A stretch of 64,000 nucleotides of DNA, from NCBI RefSeq assembly GCF_016100975.1, contig NZ_JACFRN010000004.1, positions 186,001-250,000 on the forward strand. Direction: 5' to 3'. This DNA is from Lactobacillus sp. W8174. Its GTDB lineage: Bacteria > Bacillota > Bacilli > Lactobacillales > Lactobacillaceae. Numbering within the stretch: position 1 is the stretch's first letter; each line of letters begins with the position of its first letter. Positions 2,004-12,695 of this stretch are shown here, piece by piece. Under the pieces are notes generated by a model. The model did no database searches. It had not been told where the DNA came from and was given only the letters and a program-made list of their open reading frames with translations. Made by a program: the position numbers and the translations under genes.

Positions 2004-5000
2004 ATGGAAAGTAATTTTGAATTTCTTAATCAGGATGCATTAACAAGGCAATATTATACAAGAGCAACTCAAGCAGAATTGAGTTATGCCATGGGAATTT
2101 ATCCAGGTGTGCTTACTTCAGTTCGAGTAATTGCAGAAAATATGGCCAGGGATGTTGCTGATCAAAAGTTTCTTAAAATAGGTGATCGTGAAACTTTTGA
2201 CAGTCTTCTTAAAAGGCTTAGACAGGGTGCATATATTGATGACTATGCATTACGAATTTTTTATGATATAAAGGGGCCGGGTAATCTGGCAGCTCATACT
2301 TTAGATAATGTTTCTCAAAAGGAAGCTTTGAAAGGTTTGAAGCAATTATATGCATTAAGTGTATGGTTTGTTGATTCATTTTATGATGAAAAAATTGACC
2401 CAACAAATTTTAACGAGCCTGAAAAGTCAAAATACCTGTATCAAACTACAACATTACAACCATCCAATGCTGAAAAGAATTTAATTTATATTCAAACGGC
2501 AGATAATTCATCTGGTAAGTTTCAGGTTTATGCAAATAGTCAAAAGATCGGAAAAACTGGTGTAGGTGATCTTGCAGAAGATAATTCTGACAACAGTCCC
2601 TATTTACGCTCATGGGCTAAGAAAAGAATTAATCAATATATGAAGACTTCAGGTATTCACGCTAATTTAGAATGGGCTGAATTAGCTTACCGAAAGTCTG
2701 ATGGTTGGTGGTTCTCTGATCATGATGTTCACCATGTACTTGAACGATCAGGAATTAAACATAGCAAGGATTTAGCTGGAAATGAATGGTTTGAAACAGA
2801 TTTAGAAACAGCTAAAAAGGCTATTAAAGCTGTTAAAGAAAATAAAGATAGTCTTGATGGGGTAGATTCACAAGCTAAAATAAAAATAGTATTACGTCCT
2901 GAACAAAATAGAGCAGTTAAAAAGACTATAAAAGGCTTTAATTCTGGGAGAAAGATGCTTTGGAATGCCAAGATGCGCTTTGGCAAGACTTTGACCGCTT
3001 TAGAGCTAGTCAAAGAAGAAAAGTATAAAAAAGTTTTGATTATTACTCATCGTCCTGTTGTTGATGATGGCTGGTTTGATGACTTTAATAAGATAGGAAT
3101 GCCAGAAGCTGGCTATATTTATGGCTCTAAGAAAAAAGGACATAAAAATATTTCTGATTTAGAAAAATCAGGTAATTCGTACATATATTTTGCCAGTATT
3201 CAAGATTTAGCAGGCTCAAAAGCTATAGGTGGTAAAGTATCTGATAAGAATCAAGACCTATTTGCTGTAGATTGGGATTTAGTTATTGTAGATGAAGCCC
3301 ATGAAGGAACTCAGACTGAACTAACAAAAAATATTTTAAGCCTGCTTGTTAAAAAGCATACAAAGGAATTAGATTTGTCAGGTACGCCGTTCAATATTAT
3401 TTCTGATTATGATGAAGATCATATTTTCACTTGGGACTATACTATGGAGCAGGAAGCCAAAGATAATTGGGATAAGGATAATCCAGGGAAAGAAAACCCA
3501 TATGCGAATTTACCTAAAGTTTCAATGTATACCTTTGAAATGAATGAGCACTTTAGGGACCCCCGTTTCACTGGTGAAGGTTTTGATAAATGCTTTTTCA
3601 ACTTTAAGGAATTTTTTAGAACTAATAAACAAGGTAACTTTGTTTACGAAAATGATGTTAAGCATTTTTTAGACAATATTACTAATCCAGGGATAACTAA
3701 CTATCCATTTTCATCACGTAAATTTAGAAATAGGTTGCGTCATACTTTGTGGATTATGCCGGGAATTAAAGAAGCTAATGCTCTAGAAAATTTACTAAAG
3801 CAACATCCCATTTTTGGTACGGAATACAACATTCTTAACATAGTTAGAAACGATAAGTCAGATACTGAAATGGGTACTGATATTGATGCAAAATCCGAAA
3901 ATGAAGCTATTGCTAAGGCTGATAAAGAAGGTAAGAAGACTATAACTCTTACTGTTAGGAAACTTACTACAGGTGCTACTATTCCTGAATGGACAGGAGT
4001 ATTATTCTTGTCCAATACTAGCAGTGCTATGCAATATCTTCAAGCTGCCTTTAGAGCACAAACACCATATTCATCACCTGAATTTGGGAAAAAAGAAAAT
4101 TGCTATATCTTTGATTTCGCACCAGAGAGAGCTTTAACGGTTATGGCAGAATCAACTAGTTTAGCTACTGGAGCTGGAAAAATTCAAAAGAAAGAACAAA
4201 GAGAGCAGATGGAAAAGTTGATGCATTTTTTACCAATTATTGGTGAAAGTAATCAACAAATGAAACCATTTAAGGTCGATAGTCTGCTATCTAAGATTAA
4301 GCGCGCTTATGCAGAAAAGGCAGTTAGAACAGGCTTCGATGATGATTCTATCTATAGTGATGAATTACTTTTAATTAAGGATGCTGACTTAAAAAATTTC
4401 AATAATCTTAAAGGAATTATTGGCACTACAAAGAAAGAAAAAAAGCCATTAACGTTTGATGTTAATCATCAAGGATTAGATGAAGAAGAGTATGATAAGG
4501 CTGAAAAGGCTAAGAAGAAAAAAATTGGTGAGCGTTCAGAAGAAGAACAAGCTGCTATTGATAAGGTTAAAGAGTTAAAGAAACAACGTCGAACAATGAT
4601 CTCTATTCTACGTGGAATATCAATCAGAATTCCCATGATGATCTATGGAATGAATATAAAGTTTGATGAAGACGTTTCAATTAGAAAATTTGTTAACAAT
4701 ATTGACGATGTCTCTTGGAAAGAATTCATGCCTAAAGGTATTACCAAGGAACTCTTCAATAAGTTCATTAAGTACTATGATGCAGATGTTTTTATTGAAG
4801 CAGGTAAAATTATTCGTCGTCAAGTTAAGGAATTAGATAAAGAAGATCCATTAGAACGGGTTGAAAAGATTGCGGATATATTTAGCACCTTTAGAAATCC
4901 TGATAAAGAAACTGTTTTGACCCCATGGCGTGTTGTTAATATGCACTTGGGTAAGACTATTGGTGGTTTATCATTCTATGATAACAATTATCAATACTCG

Positions 5001-6404
5001 TACGAAAATGGTGAATCAGTTAGAAGATGGATTGATACTGAGTACACAGATAAAGTCTTAAATAGAGATGCACATATTTTGGAAATTAACTCTAAAACTG
5101 GTTTATACCCACTCTATATGGTTACTTCCATATATTGGCGTGAGTTCAAAAAAATGAATGACCAAAATGCTGGTAAATTTAACTTTGAAGATGAGTTGCT
5201 GTTATGGCAAAGAATCTTAAGAGAAAATATATTCTTGGTAGCGAAAACTCCAATGGCTAAGGAAATAGCAAAAAGAACATTAATCGGCTATCATGATGAT
5301 TGGTATGTTAATGTAGAATATGTAGAAAATATTGTACAAGATGCTAAAGAAAATGTTAATGATGAAGCAAAGAAAATAAGGGGACTATTTGGGAATATGA
5401 AATTTGATGTTGTGATTGGTAATCCACCTTATCAGCAAGAGTCTAATGGTAGTAGCACTAGAGATGAACCTATATACCATCTATTTGTAAATTTATCATA
5501 TAAATTAGCTGACATATTTACTTTAATTACTCCGGGAAGATATTTATTTAATGCTGGCAGTACTCCTAAAGAATGGAATAAAAAGATGCTAACCGATGTT
5601 CACAATCGAATTGTTTTATATAAGCAAAATAGTAATGAAATATTTCCACATACGGATATAAAAGGCGGGGTAGCAATAGTTTTACATGATAAAACCACTG
5701 AATTAGGGCCTATTGGAACCTTTACCGCGTATTCAGAATTAAATGATATTTTAAAAAAGGTAGTACCATATGTTAAAGATAATGGATTGGCTAGCATAAT
5801 CTATGTTCAGAACAAATTTAATTTAGACATGTTAAATTCGGTTTTCCCTGATAAACCTAGGAAAGACAAAAGATTAGAAAGTAATATTTTTAGTAAGTAT
5901 TCAATATTTACTAAAAATAGGGAAAATGAAAATCAGATAAAGATAATTGGTCTAATTAATAATAAGCGTTTGTTTAGATATGTTGATCAGAAATACTTAA
6001 ATCTTGATCATGAAAATTTATATAAATATAAAGTATTAGTTCCAAAATCAAATGGTTCAGGTGCACTTGGTGAGGTTTTAAGCACACCCCTAATTGGAGC
6101 ACCCCTAATTGGATATACTAGAAGCTTTATTGGTATTGGTGCATTTTCGAAACGGATTGAAGCAGAAAACTTAATGAAGTATATTAAATCTAAATTTGCT
6201 AGAACAATGTTAGGAGTTTTGAAAGTTACACAAGATAATAATGCTGATAAATGGCGTTTAGTTCCAATGCAAGACTTTACTTCAAAATCTGATATTGATT
6301 GGTCAGGAAAAATCCCTGAAATTGATCAACAACTATATAAAAAATACAGTCTTACAAAGGATGAAATTAACTTTATTGAAACTAAAGTTCAGGCGATGAA
6401 ATGA
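2004..6404 (+). CDS. Single-chain restriction-modification enzyme: DUF4145/GIY-YIG-like/helicase/N6-methylase
   Basis: A 1466-residue fusion. Residues about 1-125 look like a DUF4145/HsdR-type N-domain. Residues about 155-285 resemble the GIY-YIG/T5orf172 nuclease fold (KIGKTG at 181-186, EWFETDLE towards the end). An SF2 translocase follows: motif I WNAKMRFGKT (320-329), DEAH at 430-433, SGTPF, and motif VI QAAFRAQ. The C-terminal part is an Eco57I-like gamma-class N6-adenine methylase with a motif I-like segment ILEINSKTGLYPLY and catalytic NPPY at 1140-1143, then a probable target-recognition region. Architecture is like type I-SP/IIG enzymes that cut and methylate in one chain, but with a GIY-YIG-type nuclease. 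A methylase-like gene follows 24 bases downstream. Confidence 0.85.
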   Translation: MESNFEFLNQDALTRQYYTRATQAELSYAMGIYPGVLTSVRVIAENMARDVADQKFLKIGDRETFDSLLKRLRQGAYIDDYALRIFYDIKGPGNLAAHTLDNVSQKEALKGLKQLYALSVWFVDSFYDEKIDPTNFNEPEKSKYLYQTTTLQPSNAEKNLIYIQTADNSSGKFQVYANSQKIGKTGVGDLAEDNSDNSPYLRSWAKKRINQYMKTSGIHANLEWAELAYRKSDGWWFSDHDVHHVLERSGIKHSKDLAGNEWFETDLETAKKAIKAVKENKDSLDGVDSQAKIKIVLRPEQNRAVKKTIKGFNSGRKMLWNAKMRFGKTLTALELVKEEKYKKVLIITHRPVVDDGWFDDFNKIGMPEAGYIYGSKKKGHKNISDLEKSGNSYIYFASIQDLAGSKAIGGKVSDKNQDLFAVDWDLVIVDEAHEGTQTELTKNILSLLVKKHTKELDLSGTPFNIISDYDEDHIFTWDYTMEQEAKDNWDKDNPGKENPYANLPKVSMYTFEMNEHFRDPRFTGEGFDKCFFNFKEFFRTNKQGNFVYENDVKHFLDNITNPGITNYPFSSRKFRNRLRHTLWIMPGIKEANALENLLKQHPIFGTEYNILNIVRNDKSDTEMGTDIDAKSENEAIAKADKEGKKTITLTVRKLTTGATIPEWTGVLFLSNTSSAMQYLQAAFRAQTPYSSPEFGKKENCYIFDFAPERALTVMAESTSLATGAGKIQKKEQREQMEKLMHFLPIIGESNQQMKPFKVDSLLSKIKRAYAEKAVRTGFDDDSIYSDELLLIKDADLKNFNNLKGIIGTTKKEKKPLTFDVNHQGLDEEEYDKAEKAKKKKIGERSEEEQAAIDKVKELKKQRRTMISILRGISIRIPMMIYGMNIKFDEDVSIRKFVNNIDDVSWKEFMPKGITKELFNKFIKYYDADVFIEAGKIIRRQVKELDKEDPLERVEKIADIFSTFRNPDKETVLTPWRVVNMHLGKTIGGLSFYDNNYQYSYENGESVRRWIDTEYTDKVLNRDAHILEINSKTGLYPLYMVTSIYWREFKKMNDQNAGKFNFEDELLLWQRILRENIFLVAKTPMAKEIAKRTLIGYHDDWYVNVEYVENIVQDAKENVNDEAKKIRGLFGNMKFDVVIGNPPYQQESNGSSTRDEPIYHLFVNLSYKLADIFTLITPGRYLFNAGSTPKEWNKKMLTDVHNRIVLYKQNSNEIFPHTDIKGGVAIVLHDKTTELGPIGTFTAYSELNDILKKVVPYVKDNGLASIIYVQNKFNLDMLNSVFPDKPRKDKRLESNIFSKYSIFTKNRENENQIKIIGLINNKRLFRYVDQKYLNLDHENLYKYKVLVPKSNGSGALGEVLSTPLIGAPLIGYTRSFIGIGAFSKRIEAENLMKYIKSKFARTMLGVLKVTQDNNADKWRLVPMQDFTSKSDIDWSGKIPEIDQQLYKKYSLTKDEINFIETKVQAMK
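6085..6113 (+). repeat. Near-perfect 15-bp tandem duplication in the specificity region
   Basis: The unit CACCCCTAATTGGAG is followed directly by the same sequence (last base differs), giving PLIGAPLIG in the protein. Because it is 15 bases it preserves the frame. It lies in the predicted target-recognition part of the fusion enzyme. Confidence 0.7.
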
Positions 6405-6428: not shown

Positions 6429-7157
6429 ATGGTGAAAAAAGCTCTCAGGGTATTGAATATGCCAGAAAAAATCATTAAATCTGTTGATCGGGTAAAAGAT
6501 ATAGGTGAAGTTTTTACACCAAAAAAGACTGTAGACTTCATGCTTGATCAACCAGAAGTAAAAGAAAAAGTGAATTCATTAACTGCTACTTTCCTTGAAC
6601 CCTCAGCAGGTGAGGGAGCATTTTTAGTTGAAATACTCAAGCGTAAATTATTGTATGCAAAATCACTGGCTAACACCGAAAAAGATTTGCAAAATAGATT
6701 TTTGCAAGTTTTATCTACATTATATGGAATTGAATTAATGGAAGACAATGTAAAAATGTTAGTTATTAATATGACTAATACTTTTAGAGACATTTACTTC
6801 AGCACAGTTAAGCTAGAGCAACAGAATCAAAAAGTGTTAAGAAGTGCTAATGTAATTATTTCTGCTAATATGGTGCAAGGGGATGCGTTGACACGTAAAA
6901 CTGCGACTGGCAGTCCTATTATTTTTAGTGAATGGGAACCAGTAGGTAAAAATAAAGTTCAGAGAACAGAATATACCTTTGATTCCATTGTAGAAAATAG
7001 TGAGCCAATTGGGGTAGCGCGAGAACATAGCGAACAGTTAAATTTGTTTGCAGATCATGAAATTGTGCCAAAGAATCCTAAAACTAAGAAGTACATCTCT
7101 GTTAAATGGGAAGATATATACAAACAATTAACGGAAATAGTTCAAACAGACAATTGA
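6429..7157 (+). CDS. Partial N6-DNA methylase-like protein with canonical SAM motif
   Basis: A 242-residue protein beginning like an Eco57I/HsdM methylase: GEVFTPKKTVDFML, then SAM-binding motif I EPSAGEGAF, then an acidic motif II-like YGIELMED. The place where NPPY is expected reads FDSIVENSEP, so the catalytic motif looks degenerate. The C-terminus is short with no target-recognition domain. It follows the fusion restriction enzyme in the same direction and is presumably co-transcribed. It may be a regulatory or helper subunit, or a decayed modification gene. The ATG at 6429 has only a weak, distant AGAAGAG ribosome site. Methylase ancestry is clear; activity is doubtful. Confidence 0.7.
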   Translation: MVKKALRVLNMPEKIIKSVDRVKDIGEVFTPKKTVDFMLDQPEVKEKVNSLTATFLEPSAGEGAFLVEILKRKLLYAKSLANTEKDLQNRFLQVLSTLYGIELMEDNVKMLVINMTNTFRDIYFSTVKLEQQNQKVLRSANVIISANMVQGDALTRKTATGSPIIFSEWEPVGKNKVQRTEYTFDSIVENSEPIGVAREHSEQLNLFADHEIVPKNPKTKKYISVKWEDIYKQLTEIVQTDN

Positions 7158-7420: not shown

Positions 7421-7702
7421 CTAATATAAATATTTTTCGATTTCTTTTACTAAGTCTATAAAATCAATTTCTAATGCAATTGATAATTTTTTTAAGGTAA
7501 TTAAACTAGGAAGATTCCTACCATTTTCAATATTTGATAGAGTTTTTTCTGATATCCAACCGTCTGGCAGTAGTCCCATTGAGATACGATCACTAATAAA
7601 GTAATCACGAGAAGTATTTTTTGTTGTAAGAGATTTTCTATGGGATTTTATTATTTTCCCAATTTCAATTATATTTTCTTGAAGCTTTTTCTTTGCAGTC
7701 AT
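7421..7702 (-). CDS. XRE-family transcriptional regulator
   Basis: A 93-residue helix-turn-helix protein. The HTH spans about residues 45-80, with the recognition helix in SEKTLSNIENGRNLPS, followed by LKKLSIALEIDF. A basic N-terminal stretch precedes it. It is transcribed away from the AIPR gene, and a perfect palindrome lies between them, so it is likely the switch for that gene and itself. No good ribosome site precedes the ATG at 7702. A possible -10 (TTATAG) lies close to the start, so the message may be short-leadered. Small size and divergent position are typical of control proteins of defence genes. Confidence 0.8.
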   Translation of the reverse strand: MTAKKKLQENIIEIGKIIKSHRKSLTTKNTSRDYFISDRISMGLLPDGWISEKTLSNIENGRNLPSLITLKKLSIALEIDFIDLVKEIEKYLY

Positions 7703-7826: not shown

Positions 7827-9005
7827 ATGACTAAAAATAATATGAGTAGATTCAAGGTTGAATCTGTTAGAACAATTAAATCCCCATCAGATCCAGATAT
7901 TCGGACTTACTTTGCTTGGGTAAATTTCAAAGATCTGCCTGATGATTTTTCATTAGAAGTCAATCCAAGAAAGCCTAAAATGACAACGTCTGTTGCAAAG
8001 CAATTGATTAAGGCAGTCAAAGATCCCGATAGTAGCTTTGATATAAATAATCGAGGAATTGTAATGACAGCTAAGAGTGTCGTATTCAATAATTCTACGG
8101 GTATGCTTACTGTTGACTTTGATGACGACATACATCGTTATGGCTTATTAGATGGAGGACATACTTATACTGCTATTATTGAAAATAGAGAATATGTGCC
8201 TAATGATATAGATAAATTTGTTAGACTCGAAATAGTTGTTGGAGATAATTTGGATGTTTCAGCCTTAGCCGATGCTAGAAATACATCTATTCAGGTTAGC
8301 GATATTTCTCTATTTGAATTAGATAATAAATTTGGTTTTATTAAAGACGCCATACAAAATGAGCCATATGCAGATAAAGTAGCATATAAAGACAATGATA
8401 ATAAACCGATTCCAATAGCTAATATTCTGAAACTAATGTTTGCTTTTAATATAAAAAGGTACCCGGATGATAGTCAAGTTCCTATTTCTTCATATTCGGG
8501 GAAGGCTGCAGTATTTAAAGACTACAAAAATGAGTACGATAACAATCCTAATATTTATAAGCAACTAGCGAAAGAAATTCCAACACTTGTTCGATTATAT
8601 GAAACTATACAAAAAGAAATGAGTGATAAATATAATCAATTTAAAGAAGAGGATGGGAAAAAGTCTAAATTTGGGGCAGTTCGTGGTGTTGATAATAAGG
8701 GCAATCTGAAAACTGACTTTACTGGAGAACCAATAAAATATGATATTTCTTCTGGATTTTTAATGCCTATTTTTGGAGCATTCCGGGCATTGCTTTCTAT
8801 GGGCAAAAAAGATGTTCAGTGGGCGGCAGATCCAGTTGAAGTATGGGAAAAAGTAGGAACTAGATTAGTTCAAAATACCTTTGATACAGATACAAATCCT
8901 CAACAAATTGGTAAGAGTAAAACATTATGGCAATCAAATTACCGTATAGTTGATGGGGCTAGAAAAGATTTGTTAATTCAAAAATTAACAAAGCAAAATA
9001 ATTAG
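7827..9005 (+). CDS. AIPR-family (abortive infection phage resistance) protein
   Basis: A 392-residue protein matching the AIPR/DGQHR-like pattern: an N-terminal beta region, then NNRGIVMTAK, GLLDGGHTYTAI and the ADARNTSIQVSDISL segment (about residues 70-170), where the family keeps its G-H/Q-T and N-S/T residues. AIPR proteins occur in abortive infection and near restriction-modification systems; their biochemical activity is poorly known. The gene has a strong ribosome site, its own promoter and a following terminator, so it is a one-gene unit controlled by the divergent XRE regulator. Its neighbours support an antiphage role, but this is inference. Confidence 0.75.
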   Translation: MTKNNMSRFKVESVRTIKSPSDPDIRTYFAWVNFKDLPDDFSLEVNPRKPKMTTSVAKQLIKAVKDPDSSFDINNRGIVMTAKSVVFNNSTGMLTVDFDDDIHRYGLLDGGHTYTAIIENREYVPNDIDKFVRLEIVVGDNLDVSALADARNTSIQVSDISLFELDNKFGFIKDAIQNEPYADKVAYKDNDNKPIPIANILKLMFAFNIKRYPDDSQVPISSYSGKAAVFKDYKNEYDNNPNIYKQLAKEIPTLVRLYETIQKEMSDKYNQFKEEDGKKSKFGAVRGVDNKGNLKTDFTGEPIKYDISSGFLMPIFGAFRALLSMGKKDVQWAADPVEVWEKVGTRLVQNTFDTDTNPQQIGKSKTLWQSNYRIVDGARKDLLIQKLTKQNN

Positions 9006-10092: not shown

Positions 10093-11145
10093 TTGAAAGT
10101 TTTTGATTATCAAACTTTAAATGGTTTGAAAGTAACCACGAAAATGATTGAAAAACTAAATCTGATCTATGAGCTTAAAGGTAAAACGGATCATATCTCC
10201 TTAAAGTCGAAAGACACAATGGATAAGTTATTGATGGTCGCAAAGATTGAGAGTACAGACTCATCCAATCGAATTGAAGGAATTGCAACAAGTAATGCAC
10301 GGCTTAAGAAATTAATGGATCAAAAAACGACTCCGAAAAATCGGAGTGAAGAAGAGATCTCTGGCTATCGTGATGTTTTAGCAGTAATTCATGATAATTA
10401 TAAATATATCAAGATTACACCCAATAATATATTGGCATTGCATAAACAATTGTTCGATTTTACTGAAAGCAACTGGGGCGGTCAATTTAAGGACATTGAT
10501 AATGAAATTATTACTACCTTTGCAGATGGTCATAAAGAAACTCGCTTTACTCCACCACCAGCTTGGATGACACCCAAATTAGTCCAAAGTTTATGTGAAA
10601 CTTATAATGATGCAATTTGTGATAATTCTCTTCCGCCATTAATACTGGCGGCAGCATTTATGTTGGACTTTGTATCAATTCATCCATTTAGAGATGGCAA
10701 TGGCAGAATGTCACGCTTGTTAATGCTACTTGAATTACAACAATTAGGTTTCGAAGTTGGTAAGTATATTAGTTTGGAACGTTTAATTGAAAAAACTAAG
10801 GCGCAATATTACCGGACTTTGCTAGAAAGTTCAGGTAAAGCATGGATTAATAATGAAAACGATTATGAACCATATGTTGACTACTTTTTGAGTATCGTTT
10901 TGAAAGCTTACCGTGAATTAGATTCACGAATTGACATCACTAGTGATATGGAAAAGAATCCGGAATCATTGCTATTGAATAAAATTATTAATAGTTTAAA
11001 GCCGTTATCTAGACAGGAACTAATGAATTTAGTGCCTCAATATGGTGAAAGTACCATTAAGCATGCTTTAGCTAGGTTGCGCAAAGAAAGAAAAATAGGT
11101 TTAGTAGGCAAAGGAAAGGCAAGTCGCTATATTGCCAATGACTAA
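10093..11145 (+). CDS. Fic-domain protein (class II, self-inhibited) with C-terminal winged helix
   Basis: A 350-residue protein. Fic enzymes usually transfer AMP from ATP to a protein hydroxyl. The active-site loop HPFRDGNGR is complete at residues 197-205 (His197 the catalytic base, Asp and Asn holding Mg and phosphate). The N-terminal inhibitory motif S-x-x-x-E-G is present as SNRIEG (58-63), making this a self-restrained class II Fic. The last 70 residues look like a winged-helix DNA-binding domain, as in many standalone Fic proteins. The start is TTG at 10093, with AAGGAG about 10 bases upstream. Related repeats flank the gene and suggest autoregulation. The target protein is unknown. 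Confidence 0.9.
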   Translation: MKVFDYQTLNGLKVTTKMIEKLNLIYELKGKTDHISLKSKDTMDKLLMVAKIESTDSSNRIEGIATSNARLKKLMDQKTTPKNRSEEEISGYRDVLAVIHDNYKYIKITPNNILALHKQLFDFTESNWGGQFKDIDNEIITTFADGHKETRFTPPPAWMTPKLVQSLCETYNDAICDNSLPPLILAAAFMLDFVSIHPFRDGNGRMSRLLMLLELQQLGFEVGKYISLERLIEKTKAQYYRTLLESSGKAWINNENDYEPYVDYFLSIVLKAYRELDSRIDITSDMEKNPESLLLNKIINSLKPLSRQELMNLVPQYGESTIKHALARLRKERKIGLVGKGKASRYIAND

Positions 11146-11807: not shown

Positions 11808-12695
11808 ATGAAAAATAAAAAAGAAGACTTGCATACTGAATTTAAAAGGGCTAAGAAAAGTGTTCCAAAAGATATGTGGCCGACTGTATCTGCTTTTGCT
11901 AATACTGATGGCGGGACTATCTATTTGGGATTCACTGAAATAAAGGAAAATGGAAATGTAAAGGGATATAAAGCTACTGGAGTAATGAATCCTGAAACCA
12001 TGATTAAGGATATTCTTGATACTTCTAATAATCCTAGAAAGCTTTATCCGAATGTTATTGAAGAAAAAAATGTTCAAGTTAAAGAAGTTACTTCGAAAGT
12101 AAAAATTATAGAGGTTTATATACCAAGAGCTCCTTTTAAGGAACGGCCTATATATATAAACGGAGACCAAAAGAATTCTTTCAAACGTGTAGGAACTGGT
12201 GATAAACGAGTAAATTCTGAAGATCTTAAAGCAATACTAAGAGACGCTTATGGCGATGATAGTGCAGAAACATTAGATGGATTTGATTTCACAGATTTAA
12301 ACTTGGTAGATATCCAAAATTATAAAGCTTTTTATGCGGAGCAAAATGAAGAACCTGAGGTAATTGAAGAGGATAATAAACACTTTTTCAAAAGAATCGG
12401 TCTTTACCGAAAAGACAGAAAAGATAAAAAATTCAAAATAACAAGAGCACTATGGAGGACTACGTTTGATGATGTAATTAAACCCCTTCCTAAGGATTGT
12501 CAAGAAACGTATAGTCTCTTAAATGATAAGGTTGTTGTAACATATAAAGATTTGGGACACCTATATTCTAGTAAATGGAAAGGACACCAAATATTAAATG
12601 ATATGATAAACAAAGGCTTAATTGAAAGATCTGGAAAAGGACCAGGAACAAAATATATGATATCGAGGAATTTGCCTTGGGGTAAAAGTGCATAA
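11808..12695 (+). CDS. AlbA_2/Schlafen-type DNA-binding domain protein, short form
   Basis: A 295-residue protein. Residues about 5-150 carry the AlbA_2 (divergent AAA-4, Schlafen) domain: LHTEFKRAKK, then SAFANTDGGTIYLGF, then the FKRVGTGDKRV strand. The C-terminal 60 residues form a winged helix (ILNDMINKGLIERSGKGPGTKY). Family members are usually 450-550 residues; here the N-domain runs into the C-terminal helix soon after KKFKITRALW, so the central region appears deleted. Such proteins are treated as nucleic-acid-binding regulators and are common in defence islands. There is no clear ribosome site other than a weak GAGGG upstream of the ATG. Function is unknown. Confidence 0.75.
   Translation: MKNKKEDLHTEFKRAKKSVPKDMWPTVSAFANTDGGTIYLGFTEIKENGNVKGYKATGVMNPETMIKDILDTSNNPRKLYPNVIEEKNVQVKEVTSKVKIIEVYIPRAPFKERPIYINGDQKNSFKRVGTGDKRVNSEDLKAILRDAYGDDSAETLDGFDFTDLNLVDIQNYKAFYAEQNEEPEVIEEDNKHFFKRIGLYRKDRKDKKFKITRALWRTTFDDVIKPLPKDCQETYSLLNDKVVVTYKDLGHLYSSKWKGHQILNDMINKGLIERSGKGPGTKYMISRNLPWGKSA

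Follow-up and report, generated by a model that had tools for sequence, protein, structure and literature searches.

Can a single polypeptide read, mark and cut DNA by itself? The question is raised by an uninterrupted open reading frame (ORF) at positions 2004..6404 (forward strand, ATG start, no internal stop) of a 64,000-nucleotide stretch of the Lactobacillus sp. W8174 genome, hereafter the window, whose 1466-residue product had been proposed in an earlier note to unite GIY-YIG-like restriction, translocase and methylase activities. We find that the normal motif I for binding S-adenosylmethionine (SAM) is absent from this large chain and present in the adjoining gene (6429..7157), and our preferred reading, to which we give a probability of about 58%, is that the two genes form a two-subunit, plasmid- and island-borne, ATP-dependent GIY-YIG restriction-modification system. 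What can be read from the sequences is its anatomy, that is, the domain order, a conserved nuclease signature, a deviant motif I, two methyltransferase (MTase) N-halves for one C-half, alternative gene fusions and a block exchange at the NPPY motif; from this we infer which N-half pairs with the C-half for catalysis, that the deviant N-half does not bind SAM, and the acts of translocation, cleavage and methylation.

Domains of the large subunit

The motifs named in the earlier note were all recovered in the order claimed (KIGKTG 181-186, EWFET 261-265, MRFGKT 324-329, DEAH 430-433, QAAFRAQ 680-686 and NPPY 1140-1143), and chance matching as their source is ruled out by their conservation across the family and by the Pfam matches of the chain to ResIII (residues 295-463, E 6.8e-18) and Eco57I (residues 1074-1214, E 5.7e-26), and further by 48 plasmid records in which at least 80% of the chain is covered at one place. 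An MtrH match (E 0.0019) was set aside as a single weak stretch within the helicase end. From its N-terminus the chain comprises, all on the forward strand, a DUF4145-like helical domain with a HEPN fold (2019..2384, residues 6-127), a T5orf172/GIY-YIG nuclease domain (2475..2837, residues 158-278), a superfamily 2 (SF2) helicase/translocase (2880..4373, residues 293-790), a second MTase N-half, termed N2 (4581..5381, residues 860-1126), with a motif X-like VLTPW (971-975) and a deviant motif I, ILEINSKTG (1025-1033), and an MTase C-half (5382..6401, residues 1127-1466) that holds motif IV (NPPY), the catalytic part and the target recognition domain (TRD), and is block-swapped among relatives. 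The likeness of the N-terminal domain to DUF4145 was borne out by relatives (8 of 12 aligned sequences match at E<=1, best 1.5e-7), but not by the window protein alone, which falls under the Pfam cut-off (E 0.011); the shorter large subunits lack this domain. Translocase, gamma-class MTase and C-terminal TRD stand together in one chain, as in Type ISP enzymes, and motif IV and a Rossmann fold with a TRD are present as in gamma-class N6-methyladenine (m6A) DNA MTases. The looping or translocation suggested earlier is a possibility raised by the helicase motifs.

The predicted nuclease appears to be of the GIY-YIG (T5orf172) type where an Mrr domain would be usual, as had been proposed, and no Mrr/PD-(D/E)XK family figures among the Pfam matches of the large chain at E<=1. 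Its signature of Tyr, (Y/K)IG, Arg and Glu is present as Y162, K181-I-G183, R208 and E261, and across 64 related chains Y162, K181, G183 and R208 are each conserved in 63, E261 in 62 and H243 in 61; Tyr, (Y/K)IG, Arg and Glu are the catalytic signature of the superfamily, and for the Arg and the Lys variant there is support in the literature. Profile searches gave a divided answer: the window protein itself remains under the T5orf172 cut-off (E 0.048 in Pfam; E 0.0093 in a separate search, 16.9 versus 20 bits), but 9 of the 12 aligned relatives match at E<=1 (best 4.4e-5), and the cut-off is passed by the large subunit of one related locus (L017, 38.1 bits), whose domain aligns with the window-family profile at E 7.6e-15, and by a Rhizobium protein (25.3 bits). 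Residues 158-278 follow the order strand-strand-helix-strand-helix-helix. PDB fold searches with residues 1-300 listed no GIY-YIG proteins, the listing being occupied by the HEPN domain. The earlier note would have been refuted had residues 150-290 shown no GIY-YIG fold; it stands on this point because the signature is conserved and because T5orf172 proteins took 7 of the first 10 rows of a Foldseek comparison with viral models (the best at E 3.1e-3, with no row reaching E<=0.001), for a domain that was not folded separately. In a GIY-YIG nuclease already described, R.Hpy188I, Lys likewise replaces Tyr in the YIG half-motif, as at K181, although the excerpts of that paper present a stand-alone Type II enzyme without motor or MTase (PMC2630997).

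Two N-halves for one C-half

The adjoining gene begins 24 bases past the stop of the large subunit, on the same strand, and encodes a 242-residue protein (P0002) that has the features of a stand-alone MTase N-half. Its segments EVFTP (27-31), FLEPSAGEGAF (55-65), LYGIE (98-102) and QGDAL (150-154) are what we take to be gamma-class motifs X, I, II and III, and NPPY is missing over the full 242 residues. P0002 has no significant Pfam domain, and a PDB sequence search returned 3 matches with a best E of 0.13 (for the large subunit, 0 at E<=0.01), but it matches the N-terminal parts of 17 PADLOC MTase/IIG models (best E 1.2e-9). Two forms of small subunit occur, the standard one (EPSAGEGAF-like) and a variant (EITCGEAPY), and a profile comparison aligned them at E 3.3e-14.

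Where the small subunit reads GEG in the GxG of motif I, the large subunit reads KTG, Lys1031 replacing the first Gly (INSKTG). This change is general, N2 carrying K[ST]G in 66/66 chains (64 by pattern, 2 by reading) and three further N2 read singly also lacking the first Gly, which brings the count to 69/69. By comparison, Gly occupies this position in all 12 of the other Eco57I-type MTases whose motif could be read, from a control set of 20 loci of which 8 yielded none. N2 is nevertheless strongly conserved, NPDKETVLTPW and KTGLYPL being invariant among 12 aligned sequences. In profile comparisons, the N2 of the shorter large subunits connected on one side with that of one-chain enzymes (E 3.6e-6) and on the other with the small subunit (E 8.1e-7), while the direct comparison between the N2 family of the window and the small subunit was not significant (E 0.031, probability 1.6%). 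N2 resembles a methyltransferase N-half that presumably does not bind SAM.

We then scored the small N-half, N2, the C-half and the helicase with hidden Markov models (HMMs) in 66 non-duplicate loci (the window, L003-L017, L057-L093 and L116-L128), leaving out the duplicate short loci L001-L002, L018-L056 and L095-L115 and a 4,495-base contig, L094; the 66 are partly non-independent, L063/L064, L010/L011 and L123/L124 being near copies. Both N-halves, one C-half and the helicase occur together in 61/66, so that by module count these loci have a single C-half/TRD each, like the one TRD of Type IIG enzymes. Their layouts differ: helicase, N2 and C-half form one chain beside a small subunit in 40 loci (35 with the standard form, 5 with the variant), some with broken frames such as L007, L065 and L088; a helicase-N2 protein stands beside a separate C-half in 15 (8 + 7), including L014, which is a broken C-half and not a true separate gene; the helicase is alone beside an N2-C protein in 4; and a helicase-N2 protein accompanies a fused [small half-C] protein in 2 (L089, L090). 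The five incomplete loci comprise two near a contig edge (L003, L069), two remnants (L092, L127) and L009, whose surroundings contain no small-subunit gene. Taken together, these layouts and the profile links between the halves show the C-half in three settings: joined to N2, joined to the small half, or by itself, starting shortly before NPPY. A search with the small subunit only, over 246 genomes of the order, matched 16, with 12 new loci, 11 of which adjoin the other modules and 1 of which is a 95-residue fragment. In L007, L014, L065, L088 and L093 the large-subunit gene lies in at least two frames, commonly in the C-half or the helicase; decay, phase variation and errors of assembly are possible causes.

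The claim that methylation resides wholly in one chain is not supported in that form, given a motif I with Lys for its first Gly and a half with an intact motif I in the next gene, here and in relatives. A plain split MTase and nothing else was also rejected, because N2 completes the MTase fold within the large subunit. In the two-subunit system that we favor, the large subunit would carry the GIY-YIG nuclease, the SF2 motor and the target-reading MTase half (NPPY and TRD), and the small subunit would provide the half that binds SAM (motifs X-III), which would form the methylating unit together with the C-half. The deviant N2 would complete the MTase fold in cis and, in the restriction form, hold that C-half so that it reads the target, such that at an unmethylated site the motor would run and the GIY-YIG domain would cut.

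The chief rival, which we consider rather unlikely, sees the large subunit as sufficient by itself, as a Type ISP/IIG-like enzyme that uses a GIY-YIG nuclease, with N2 binding SAM despite its Lys and the small protein acting as a regulator or stability factor. The predicted structure argues for it, placing inside the large chain a whole MTase fold that overall matches CamA, LlaGI and M.TaqI closely, and it would fit both the strong conservation of N2 and the lack of a nearby small-subunit gene at L009. However, the loss of the first Gly in every N2 read, together with a conserved small subunit, argues against self-sufficiency, motifs X-III are present in the small subunit itself, which in L089 and L090 is directly fused to the C-half, and the genome of L009 does encode a small subunit elsewhere: its sole match lies on another contig (L161, 6687-7757), among unrelated neighbors, and is 54% identical to that of L088. 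We find it quite improbable that both N-halves bind SAM, alternating on one C-half, for instance to methylate two strands or half-sites, or that N2 senses the SAM level; the retention of both in 61/66 loci and the strong constraint on an N2 that is not decaying would suit this reading, but N2 keeps its change at the cofactor-contacting glycine and shows no sign here of a second SAM site. Finally, a non-cutting system akin to bacteriophage exclusion (BREX), in which the T5orf172 domain solely binds DNA, is highly improbable: the viral library does annotate T5orf172 as a DNA-binding domain and such systems act without cleavage (PMC4752239, in excerpt), but the conservation of all GIY-YIG signature positions over otherwise divergent chains argues for catalysis.

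C-half exchange, small-subunit tail and genomic setting

Returning to the two-subunit system, the C-half behaves as a cassette. Between L123 and L124, small subunits and helicases are each 99% identical and N2 96%, whereas the C-halves, compared over 115 residues beginning at NPPY, are 34% identical; per 50-residue step, identity of the large chains is 92-100% up to residue 1100 and 12-38% after the break, and the DNA is near-identical through the NPPYQET codons and diverges immediately after. The same pattern, less sharp, was seen between L074 and L121, while comparison rows with L014 are artefacts, its C-half being in two frames and the compared piece lacking NPPY. Across the 61 loci, the correlation of distances is 0.95 between helicase and N2 but only 0.12-0.19 between the C-half and the others. 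Partial correlations (C-half with small half 0.044, with 65/500 permutations as high; with N2 -0.161; with helicase 0.194, 3/500) give the small half no advantage over either N2 or the helicase as partner of the C-half in these loci, and therefore the distance test leaves its pairing undecided. With its boundary at NPPY, such a cassette may be an easy way of gaining new specificities.

The tail of P0002 contains QLNLF (residues 203-207, window 7035-7049), which we take to resemble the pentapeptide that binds the replication clamp. The pattern Q[LIVM][SDNTP][LMF][FLWM] occurs in the tail of 34/58 non-redundant small subunits, where shuffling predicts 1.2, and anywhere in 9/266 other ORFs of 200-400 residues at the loci, the latter set being a mechanical ORF list and not all genes. 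Two observations weigh against a clamp-binding role: many other small subunits carry E for Q, and the motif is missing from the three small subunits found on plasmids outside the Bacillota and from the two of phages. A search of an open-access library for the replication clamp together with restriction-modification found no paper. With more doubt than belief, we tentatively extend the two-subunit reading to a C-half common to the SAM-binding small half, as methylase, and to the dead N2, as a reader licensing cutting; a cassette swap at motif IV would then change both activities, and in part of the family a clamp tether (QL[SDN]LF) might allow new DNA to be marked before it can be cut. If the system is as we propose, it would represent a naturally occurring m6A methyltransferase that is split between motifs III and IV and whose restriction subunit bears a conserved pseudo-half, and would offer a direct route to ask how one recognition domain serves self-marking and attack.

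The large subunit matches 89 plasmid records, in 48 of which a single place covers at least 80% of the chain, and occurs in 31/301 genomes of the family of the window and 7/398 of the phylum, the genome of the window being counted in each. Plasmids of Sphingopyxis, Rhizobium and Arthrobacter, reached via the small subunit, carry the same modules in other layouts. The L016 system lies on the Enterococcus faecium plasmid pDY28-optrA, annotated with optrA and erm(A). The genome of the window holds a second copy (G000:C16:121919-126298; L002, L057) that is 61% identical and has its own small subunit; the two may read similar sites, because the TRD stretch (62% identical) diverges no more than the rest of the chain.

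Two phages carry related pairs. In Aeromonas phage Ah1 (L165), gp103 (small half) adjoins gp104, which has a T5orf172-like start (19.0 bits versus a cut-off of 20) and a C-half with NPPF; N2 is absent from both proteins, the rest of the phage genome not having been searched for it. In Prochlorococcus phage P-SSM2 (L166), protein 036 (NPPY), which matches neither Pfam nor the C-half HMM, overlaps protein 037, a small half above the N6_Mtase cut-off. Both pairs are possibly split MTases without a restriction motor.

In the window, the system is surrounded by genes for a tyrosine integrase (576-1778), a Fic protein (SoFic-like, 10093-11145) and a Schlafen AlbA_2 protein (11808-12695), and this setting looks like a mobile defence island. 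Beside it lie a helix-turn-helix protein gene (7421-7702, reverse strand) and, divergent from it, an AIPR gene (7827-9005, forward strand; PF10592, E 4.6e-35), which was rejected as a partner of the system since no relative was found among the ORFs of the other loci examined. DUF262 genes lie beside a few systems (matches in L076, L077, L082 and L092; by annotation or reading L162, L015 and L163), and such a gene is a possible extra partner at some loci.

Comparison with known systems

Type ISP enzymes such as LlaGI and LlaBIII share the domain order of the large chain but have an Mrr-like nuclease; the window system differs from their description, as excerpted, in its GIY-YIG nuclease, deviant motif I and separate SAM-binding small subunit (PMC3874165). 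The combination of GIY-YIG, translocase and IIG-like MTase is already published, in separate proteins. In the Type IIG-like systems of the OspHL35III type, which according to a figure legend have several hundred REBASE members, a GIY-YIG endonuclease, a translocase and an MTase/TRD are likewise combined, but the three are separate proteins and the MTase is a complete one of MmeI type, and the excerpts mention no second N-half (PMC4752239). A complete MmeI-like MTase/TRD protein was not found here, the MTase region of the large subunit being Eco57I and set apart by family matches rather than by alignment with OspHL35III, and MmeI_Mtase matches weakly in the small or N2-C proteins of some relatives. 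DnmA-YeeB-YeeC of Bacillus subtilis, reported in the passages available as a non-functional restriction relic there, also joins an m6A MTase, an SF2 helicase and a T5orf172 protein in a defence-island setting, but its MmeI-homologous MTase is a complete single chain and its genes are separate (PMC9973331).

Pieces of the family are already modelled in PADLOC as PDLC03626 (IIG, 1359 residues), PDLC03375 (C-half, 348 residues) and PDLC03390 (variant small half, 327 residues); the large subunit of the window matches PDLC03626 (E 1.2e-49) and PDLC03375, and relatives match all three, but PADLOC labels each half by itself as a IIG enzyme or a Type II methyltransferase. With the halves entered as methyltransferases in their own right, methylase counts and motif-to-gene assignments can go wrong. 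A personal communication, mentioned in PMC4335053, concerns a new class of DNA methyltransferases that are split into 2 or 3 subunits, with citations to an H. pylori methylome paper, whose passages on "split" concern other matters, and to a paper on M.HhaI fragments; the excerpts describe no split at motifs III/IV accompanied by a second N-half. In the open-access papers searched, an arrangement in which two N-halves share a single C-half was not described, REBASE lying outside the search.

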